Shown one piece after another: positions 11,670 through 13,274 of a stretch of 64,000 nucleotides of DNA. The stretch's first letter is position 1. Every line of letters begins with the position of its first letter. Position numbers and translations under genes: made by a program. Under the pieces are notes generated by a model that was given only the letters and a program-made list of their open reading frames with translations, did not search any database and was not told where the DNA came from. This DNA comes from Pseudomonas palmensis (GTDB lineage: Bacteria > Pseudomonadota > Gammaproteobacteria > Pseudomonadales > Pseudomonadaceae). The stretch spans positions 1-64,000 of the forward strand of contig NZ_JAFKEC010000004.1 in the NCBI RefSeq assembly GCF_017848315.1. The letters run 5' to 3'.

Positions 11670-12986
11670 TCAGCGCTTGCGCAGGCTTTCCAGCAACTTG
11701 TGCGTCGGGTAGCCATCGGCCGGCCAGCCCTGCGCCTGCTGCGCACTGCGGATGGCCTTGCGCGTGTTGGCGCCGATGATCCCGTCTGCGGTGCCCGCGT
11801 CATAATTGTTGGCGCTGAGCAGTTGCTGCAGCTCGATCCGCTCGCTGCGGCTCAGCGGCAGGTCATCCTTTGGCCACGACCCGCGAATGAAGCCCGAGTT
11901 GTCGAAGCGTTCCGCCAGCAGGCTTACGGCCAGCGCATAGGACGACGAGTTGTTGTACTTGAGGATCGCGCGGAAATTGTCCAGCACCAGGAATGCCGGG
12001 CCACGGGCGCCCGCCGGCAGCAGCAGGGCGGCCGACAGCTGTTCGGTACCAGCCGGGGCACGGGCACCGGCTGGCAGGGTCACACCCAGTTGCTGCCACT
12101 CCGCCACGCTCTTGCGCAGGCTGCCATCGGCCAGCCAGTAGTCGAAGCTGCCTGGCACCTGGACTTCGAAGCCCCAGGGCTCGCCACGTTTCCAGCCGGA
12201 GCTTTGCAGGTAGTGCGCGGTGGAGGCCAGCGCATCGGCCGAGCTCTTCCAGATGTCGCGGCGACCGTCGCCGTCGAAGTCCACGGCGTGGGTGTTGTAG
12301 GTGGTCGGGATGAACTGGGTCTGGCCCATTGCGCCGGCCCACGAACCCAGCATGGCCTCGGGCTGGATATCGCCGTTCTGCAGGATCTGCAGGGCCGCGA
12401 TCAGCTGCGCCTGGGCAAATGCCGGGCGGCGTCCTTCATAGGCCAGGGTGGCCAGGGAGCGGATCACCGACTTGCTGCCCTGGAACTGGCCGAAGTTGCT
12501 CTCCATGCCCCATACCGACACCAGTACGCTGCGGTCCACGCCATAGCGTTGCTCCAGCTGGCTGAGCAGGACGGCATGCTGGTCGAGCAGCTTCTTGCCG
12601 TTGCGAACGCGCAGGGGCGACAGCGCGCCCTCGAGGTATTCCCACACCGGCCGGGTGAATTCGGGTTGGCTGCGGTCGGCCTTGATCACGTCCATGTCGG
12701 GGGTGATGCCGATGAACGCGCGGTCGAAGGTGGCCGGGGTGATGCCGGCCTGCAGGGCCTGCTGACGAAAGCCGGCTTGCCATTGGGCAAAGGTCTGCAG
12801 GGGCTGGATTTCCGGGCTGGCGTCGGTGTTCGGGGTGGGCAGGGTGACCACCGGGGCAGGTTGCGCGGGAGCCAGGGGCAGGGTGTCGGCGACGGTAGGT
12901 TGCTCGGCACAGGCGACGAGCAGGATAAGGCTGGAAGCTGCGGTCAGCTGGCGAAGTTGCCGGCGACGGGAGGGGCATAAGGGCAT
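11670..12986 (-). CDS. MltB-type lytic murein transglycosylase lipoprotein with peptidoglycan-binding domain
   Basis: A second MltB-family enzyme in the window. I start at the ATG giving MPLCPSRRRQLRQL (438 residues). An ATG 42 bases upstream is possible but would bury the lipoprotein signal. The lipobox is ILLVAC, about 27 residues in. The catalytic region SVWGMESNFGQFQGSK holds the conserved Glu, followed by WAGAMGQTQFIPTTY and DGDGRRDIW. The last 60 residues form a PG_binding_1 domain (RIELQQLLSANNYDAGTADG). This architecture matches the soluble/membrane SltB-type enzymes of pseudomonads. Confidence 0.93.
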   Translation of the reverse strand: MPLCPSRRRQLRQLTAASSLILLVACAEQPTVADTLPLAPAQPAPVVTLPTPNTDASPEIQPLQTFAQWQAGFRQQALQAGITPATFDRAFIGITPDMDVIKADRSQPEFTRPVWEYLEGALSPLRVRNGKKLLDQHAVLLSQLEQRYGVDRSVLVSVWGMESNFGQFQGSKSVIRSLATLAYEGRRPAFAQAQLIAALQILQNGDIQPEAMLGSWAGAMGQTQFIPTTYNTHAVDFDGDGRRDIWKSSADALASTAHYLQSSGWKRGEPWGFEVQVPGSFDYWLADGSLRKSVAEWQQLGVTLPAGARAPAGTEQLSAALLLPAGARGPAFLVLDNFRAILKYNNSSSYALAVSLLAERFDNSGFIRGSWPKDDLPLSRSERIELQQLLSANNYDAGTADGIIGANTRKAIRSAQQAQGWPADGYPTHKLLESLRKR

Positions 12987-13047
12987 GCATGGGTCCAGGT
13001 ATTTCAGGTCAGGTGACGACCATATCATGCCTGTGGGTTTCTTGCTT

Positions 13048-13212
13048 TCATGCGGCCAAAAAGTGAGAAGCCTCCCAATCTCTCGATTGGAAGGCTTCGC
13101 GGCGGTAGCTGCCTTTGCCTTTGCCGGCGGGTTCCTGACGGCTGCGGAACAAGGGCTGGGCGATGATCGATTTGGCCTTGTTGGGCCGGTGCTTTGCGGG
13201 CTTTTTGCTCAT
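13048..13212 (-). CDS. arfA: alternative ribosome-rescue factor A
   Basis: A 54-codon gene, recognised by the C-terminal-half motif KGKGSYRRE (residues 31-39), AQPLFRSRQ (18-26) and DWEAS (45-49), all matching ArfA. ArfA recruits RF2 to ribosomes stalled on mRNA without a stop codon and backs up trans-translation. ATG is preceded by AGGA at good spacing. E. coli ArfA has 72 residues. Here the protein ends earlier, at HFLAA. The last third of the coding region contains an intrinsic-terminator hairpin ahead of the stop, so the normal transcript may be non-stop. Function is inferred from family resemblance. Confidence 0.85.
   Translation of the reverse strand: MSKKPAKHRPNKAKSIIAQPLFRSRQEPAGKGKGSYRREAFQSRDWEASHFLAA
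13058..13098 (-). terminator. intragenic terminator / RNase III-type hairpin inside arfA
   Basis: On the arfA sense strand a 14-bp stem (GAAGCCTTCCAATC / GATTGGGAGGCTTC, one G-U pair) with a GAGA tetraloop covers codons 39-49. It is followed after 4 bases by TTTTT at codons 51-52. The stop codon lies beyond it. In E. coli, a hairpin at the same place yields truncated, tmRNA-tagged ArfA. Confidence 0.8.
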
Positions 13213-13274
13213 GGCAGAGGTCCTGCTCAGATGGGTGTGGGCGCAATATAGGCGCTGAACCCCTCGCAGGCAAG

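Follow-up and report, generated by a model that had tools for sequence, protein, structure and literature searches.

The final two residues of ArfA, Ala-Ala, are under strong selection as amino acids across the Pseudomonadaceae, as judged from the pattern of change at their codons. That an in-frame terminator controls arfA is already known, whereas the conserved protein-level end is, as far as could be checked, a new part of this control; no description of it was found in the literature searched, which was accessible in part and did not extend to the primary papers on arfA truncation. The fate of full-length ArfA has so far been ascribed to a hydrophobic tail, but the end selected here is the same dipeptide by which ClpXP recognizes tmRNA-tagged proteins. 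Taken together, the sequence comparisons point to a model that we consider probable, in which arfA is silenced by two locks: an in-frame terminator combined with tmRNA tagging, and an encoded ssrA-like Ala-Ala degron on the readthrough product.

The arfA locus and its in-frame hairpin

The window is the whole stretch of DNA that was analyzed, 64,000 nucleotides long. Its features relevant to arfA are as follows.

13048..13212, minus strand: arfA, 54 codons plus TGA; an open reading frame whose PF03889 match is the only one in the whole source genome
13048..13050, minus strand: TGA stop codon of arfA, proposed from the sequence to serve readthrough mRNA only
13051..13056, minus strand: codons 53-54, Ala-Ala, an ssrA-like end and predicted degron of the readthrough product; AA ends 234/261 genes
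13058..13062, minus strand: T5 run downstream of the stem, codons 51-52, the predicted U-tract of an intrinsic terminator, based on sequence and TTT codon choice
13067..13098, minus strand: stem-loop of 14 pairs including one G.U, loop GAGA at 13081-13084, codons 39-49; based on folding and on covariation in 53 stem regions
13245..13273, minus strand: promoter-like site upstream of arfA (TTGCCT, 17, TATATT); prediction only
11670..13028, minus strand: lytic murein transglycosylase gene (MltB type) downstream of arfA; TIGR02283, 393.9 bits

The protein matches the Pfam ArfA family PF03889 over residues 11-40 with a score of 34.5 bits, compared to a curated cut-off of 25.5, and matches solved ArfA chains at the sequence level (best E 1e-4). 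It contains the ArfA motifs AQPLFR and KGKGSY and terminates in SHFLAA-TGA. The first-pass annotation had named the gene from these two signatures and had assigned a 14-bp GNRA-capped stem to codons 39-49 and, upstream of the TGA, a T5 run to codons 51-52. The identification is borne out by the motifs and the profile score, and all of its coordinates are correct, with arfA on the minus strand; the fold gives 14 pairs and a GAGA loop from 13098 to 13067, after which TCAC and then TTTTT follow. A plus-strand reading of 13048-13212 was rejected; its translation is an unrelated frame, and the open reading frame runs from 13212 to 13048. An NCBIfam search gave no match for the short ArfA protein, and Rfam over the arfA locus gave a single sub-threshold match, to a plastid 3' UTR family.

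The gene order on the minus strand is leuS, lptE, holA, arfA and the MltB-type transglycosylase gene, with lipA facing them; the LptE match scores below its curated cut-off. Among loci of at least 1300 bases, the transglycosylase gene lies on the same strand and no more than 400 bases downstream of arfA in 121 of 129. In the window, the gap between the arfA stop codon and the first ATG of the transglycosylase frame is only 19 bases. A promoter scan of 3 kb on both strands found 1 site, the one upstream of arfA, as compared to 0.2 in shuffles; a promoter-like site was not found in the arfA/transglycosylase junction (window 12992-13047). Across the genus, PF03889 is found in 386 of 398 genomes. 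Ten of the 12 genomes in which the match is absent have a completeness of 90% or more and a contamination of 5% or less. One Pseudomonadaceae genome, G867, carries two ArfA matches (L298 and L330), which share a strand at a distance of about 1.4 kb and both end in FLAA.

The predicted hairpin is stable and lies within the reading frame, upstream of the stop codon, which is the layout of an arfA-type gene that yields non-stop mRNA. Its RNA fold has a z of -2.99 relative to dinucleotide shuffles, 1 of 200 of which is as low. Since a terminator scan of 3 kb returned 3 sites and shuffles gave 2.0, a terminator-like match per se is unremarkable. Synonymous resampling of codons at local usage reached a 14-pair stem in 760 of 20000 draws and an MFE as low as the native one in 778 of 5000, which indicates that the peptide EAFQSRDWEAS is itself palindrome-prone and that this one sequence stands out only moderately. 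Because the significance of the hairpin is modest when the protein is held fixed, weight is placed on covariation.

Across the 261 distinct Pseudomonadaceae genes described below, the best stem length, with one mismatch allowed, is 10-18 in 258, and the stem finishes before the stop codon in 260. When 53 distinct stem regions of the same length are compared, 95.4% of cells are paired, and 30 cells have changed on both sides yet are still paired, versus a shuffled mean of 7.9; none of 500 shuffles is as high. The covariation score is 0.212, as compared to 0.137 for shuffled regions and at most 0.077 when the stem is slid. Two other counts from these 53 regions are not above shuffles, namely pairs with a double change (4, reached in 93/500) and further pair types (13, reached in 489/500). 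Four pairs are invariant, and the innermost pair is broken in 26 of the 53 regions. The pairing pattern indicates that an in-frame hairpin with covarying pairs is present across the family.

The T-run begins 4 bases past the stem. Phe at residue -4 is encoded by TTT in all 181 genes that have Phe there, whereas six window genes use TTC 60 times and TTT 9 times; this codon choice indicates selection on the T-run as DNA sequence. The run is imperfect in most relatives, with 6 T in the 12 post-stem bases in 149/261 and a longest run of 3 in 179/261. It had been suggested that truncation occurs by either a terminator or an RNase III cut. A selected T-run favors intrinsic termination, and the first half of that suggestion gains from the TTT codons while the second loses ground. 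A mechanism in which non-stop mRNA arises mainly because RNase III cleaves the stem, as it does in E. coli, with the T-run playing a minor part, would draw on the RNase III gene of the source genome and on the cleavage of the arfA stem established in E. coli, as given in the accessible text of PMC3989581. The stems nevertheless seem short for this enzyme, at 14 pairs here and 10-18 in 258/261, when compared to a threshold taken from a review. That 2026 review, in the portion available, describes the P. aeruginosa arfA hairpin as shorter than known RNase III substrates and states that data on this point have not been published (PMC13159725). The choice of TTT codons, moreover, makes sense for a T-run only. 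A main role for RNase III is thus unlikely, and intrinsic termination is the preferred candidate source of the truncated mRNA.

Selection on the Ala-Ala end in Pseudomonadaceae

A class-wide PF03889 scan was positive in 4 of 274 genomes, source genome included. Because of this low yield, one other order and the family were sampled instead, with PF03889 found in 48 of 148 genomes of the order and 66 of 79 of the family. The genus loci come from 130 of the 386 matching genomes, all of which head a list ranked by score. A further 80 loci are the best 80 of at least 398 relatives, the family search contributed 62 (L330 being a second match within one genome), and one locus each was added from the class-wide scan and from the window itself. 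Removal of 13 identical sequences reduced these 274 loci to 261 distinct Pseudomonadaceae arfA genes, a set weighted toward close relatives and high scorers, in which some genomes are perhaps present in two collections. The tree on which changes were counted was built on sequence outside the arfA tail.

An AA terminus is found in 234 of the 261 distinct genes, with LAA in 187, MAA in 20, VAA and RAA in 6 each, KAA in 4, QAA in 3, and others. The 27 remaining genes end in AC (12), VA (5), CA (3), RA (2) or, once each, GA, AV, YA, IA and TS. Of 43 long non-overlapping open reading frames in the window, none ends in AA. The first-pass annotation had held that a covarying hairpin and a conserved LAA in related genes would support its reading, and both emerged when the comparison was run. 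Among the points raised in that annotation, the one on the LAA end is the best supported. Protein records give a similar picture: 107 of the best 120 of 538 proteins nearest the window ArfA end in AA, as do 80 of 119 additional listed proteins near L268, 27 of which end in AC; some of the protein records compared in this work are fragments.

Counts of change on the tree separate the protein from the nucleotide sequence. The first Ala codon changed 7, 12 and 75 times at its three positions and the second codon 3, 3 and 31 times, whereas each of the 24 bases 3' of the stop codon changed 32 to 70 times (mean 57). These codon changes (86 and 33) translate into 13 and 4 amino-acid changes at the last two residues, as compared to 41, 44 and 54 at residues -3, -4 and -5. 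The C-terminus of the neighboring holA, which was located in 220 of the 261 taxa, underwent 41/33/64 and 30/28/49 changes at its last two codons, versus 4/6/61 and 3/3/24 for arfA in the same taxa. Synonymous change is therefore free while codon positions 1 and 2 are nearly fixed, and holA behaves differently, which argues that the end is selected mainly as protein.

Tail length changed approximately 29 times on the tree, and Ala-Ala mostly stayed beside the stop codon. Sorted by tail length in residues, AA is present in 3/3 genes at 21, 15/17 at 22, 32/36 at 23, 164/165 at 24, 1/1 at 25, 10/10 at 26, 1/3 at 28, 4/5 at 29, 2/2 at 33, 1/1 at 37 and 1/1 at 41; it is absent at 34 (0/2), 35 (0/12), 42 (0/1), 44 (0/1) and 91 (0/1). 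Within the genus, twelve distinct genes (L023, L027-L033, L035, L036, L126, L171) share 35-residue tails with a hydrophobic stretch and an RAC end.

The Ala codons could instead be kept for an outer stem of the RNA, in which GGCAGC in the codons of KGKGSY pairs with GCNGCC before the stop codon and the protein end arises incidentally. An outer stem recurs in many predicted folds, and at least five of its six positions are pairable in 202/261 genes (five in 133). The first Ala codon ends in T in 76/261, as compared to 10 GCT among 260 Ala codons of window genes, and the third base of the last Ala codon has undergone 31 changes only. All six positions, however, are pairable in only 69/261. The presence of Ala-Ala directly 5' of the stop codon in tail classes from 21 to 41 residues indicates that the dipeptide tracks the stop codon rather than the hairpin. 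It is also retained in all five genes whose Gly-Ser codons are GGA AGT, GGA AGC or GGT AGT, and, in lineages outside the family whose stop codon lies in the loop, the Ala codons vary synonymously and face GGT TCA or GGA TCA. An outer stem is thus a distinctly unlikely explanation of Ala-Ala, although part of the conservation of the Ala codons could stem from RNA pairing.

The counts at single residues also bear on whether full-length ArfA is unstable through its hydrophobic end, by aggregation or another protease, with nothing special about Ala-Ala. For E. coli ArfA, the literature ascribes instability to a hydrophobic end, according to the accessible texts of PMC8012679, PMC10107115 and PMC11721466, and the P. 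aeruginosa ArfA end is described as hydrophobic in the available portion of PMC13159725; some relatives have a hydrophobic end without AA. General hydrophobicity, however, would not fix Ala at the last two residues (13 and 4 changes versus 41 to 54 at -3 to -5), and tails such as APPKLAA, GPEKRAA and APERRAA end in AA despite a non-hydrophobic sequence. Hydrophobicity by itself is quite unlikely to account for the end.

Stop codon usage is likewise uneven. The arfA genes end in TGA (216), TAA (41) or TAG (4 of 261), whereas holA uses TAG in 59 of 220 of the same taxa, and the base 3' of the arfA stop codon is A in 205/261, with 32 changes only. ArfA acts with RF2, which reads TGA and TAA. The near absence of TAG and the constancy of the following base would suit selection of the end and stop codon for efficient or RF2-dependent termination rather than proteolysis. 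Several Ala-Ala loci outside the family nevertheless use TAG, no part for Ala-Ala in termination came up in the literature consulted, and the Ala-Ala pattern closely fits recognition by ClpX as described in the accessible text of PMC7652416. Selection for termination is therefore a very improbable cause, and selection on the protein end for proteolysis remains the preferred reading.

A predicted degron on the readthrough product

The source genome contains genes for SspB, ClpX, SmpB, RNase III and tmRNA, and its tmRNA tag is ANDENYEGYALAA. FLAA had been likened to the ALAA end of the Pseudomonas tmRNA tag, a likeness that holds for the genome's own tag, which ends in YALAA. According to the accessible text of PMC7652416, ClpXP recognition of the ssrA degron depends chiefly on the Ala-Ala-COO- terminus, the Leu before it contributes modestly, and other proteins ending in Ala-Ala are ClpXP substrates. 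The window ArfA has this C-terminal Ala-Ala-COO-, its own end being LAA, and its tail sequence is without the SspB-binding part of the ssrA tag. The order of conservation in the family, with Ala-Ala far above the residue that precedes it, is the pattern that recognition by ClpX would be expected to select.

These comparisons allow a more detailed version of the two-lock model. In a considerable fraction of transcripts, RNA polymerase would halt around codons 51-53, and as long as trans-translation functions, the product of the stop-less mRNA would be tagged and broken down, as happens in E. coli. The selection acting on the end of the readthrough product would imply that readthrough is frequent enough for the last codons to be exposed to it, and the need of the downstream mltB-type gene perhaps explains why readthrough occurs. 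The FLAA end of the full-length protein would then be bound by ClpX. Truncated, untagged ArfA, made when trans-translation is overwhelmed, would be the sole form that escapes both locks. If the model is correct, the instability of full-length ArfA becomes a precise two-residue hypothesis, and both mRNA forms would feed the same protease, such that truncated and full-length ArfA alike would likely be destroyed unless tmRNA fails.

Outside Pseudomonadaceae, 49 ArfA loci were compared, 48 from one order plus L221; they are non-independent because few families are represented. A stem before the stop codon is found in 27 of the 49, of which 1 ends in AA. A loop containing the stop codon was assigned in 16, of which 13 end in AA (one of these, L296, rests on 5 pairs only), and the 6 loci of unclear stem layout include 1 AA end. 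The stop codon lies inside the hairpin loop in L285, L289, L290, L292, L281, L283, L294, L295, L286-L288, L244, L280 and L293. An mRNA ending past such a hairpin would retain its stop codon. In this layout, the Ala codons are synonymously variable and are located within the loop or next to it. The protein of L286, a stop-in-loop locus, is identical to a Psychrobium record, and 111 of the best 120 of 609 proteins near Psychrobium ArfA (Colwellia, Paraglaciecola and others) end in AA.

A broader role for the encoded Ala-Ala is conceivable, but doubtful. It would be an ssrA-mimic degron and a second, general layer of control over ribosome rescue, by which any ArfA translated from an mRNA with a stop codon is destroyed, and would serve as the main control in stop-in-loop relatives. 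The tail probes the mRNA channel, and its degron would possibly be shielded on a stalled ribosome, such that ArfA lives only in use.

Comparison with known systems

The in-frame hairpin had been presented as an arrangement known for E. coli arfA, and the literature, in its accessible portions, agrees (PMC8012679, PMC3989581, PMC10107115). There, the arfA mRNA is truncated in frame and its product is removed via tmRNA tagging, and full-length ArfA is unstable owing to its C-terminus (PMC8012679, PMC3989581, PMC10107115, PMC11721466; accessible portions). The window gene resembles E. coli arfA (yhdL) in its protein family, in its in-frame hairpin before the stop codon and in a full-length product that is expected to be unstable. 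It differs in its shorter stem, in being without the long hydrophobic extension, and in having 6 residues (SHFLAA) past the stem region that include the family-conserved, ssrA-like Ala-Ala. B. subtilis brfA, as described in the available text of PMC6881298, likewise combines an in-frame intrinsic terminator, non-stop mRNA and tmRNA-dependent removal, but encodes an unrelated protein. The ssrA tag itself shares the C-terminal Ala-Ala preceded by Leu, as in the YALAA of the source genome; unlike that tag, the predicted ArfA degron is encoded by the gene rather than added, and it does not include the SspB-binding part.

Another described case is P. aeruginosa PA3990 (ArfA), for which the 2026 review reports a predicted hairpin and a hydrophobic C-terminus; the accessible portion of its account of P. 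aeruginosa ArfA does not name the Ala-Ala end (PMC13159725). A database ArfA named as P. aeruginosa (P0175) ends in SFVMAA. To the description of PA3990, the present analysis adds the selection on Ala-Ala and the codon bias of the T-run.
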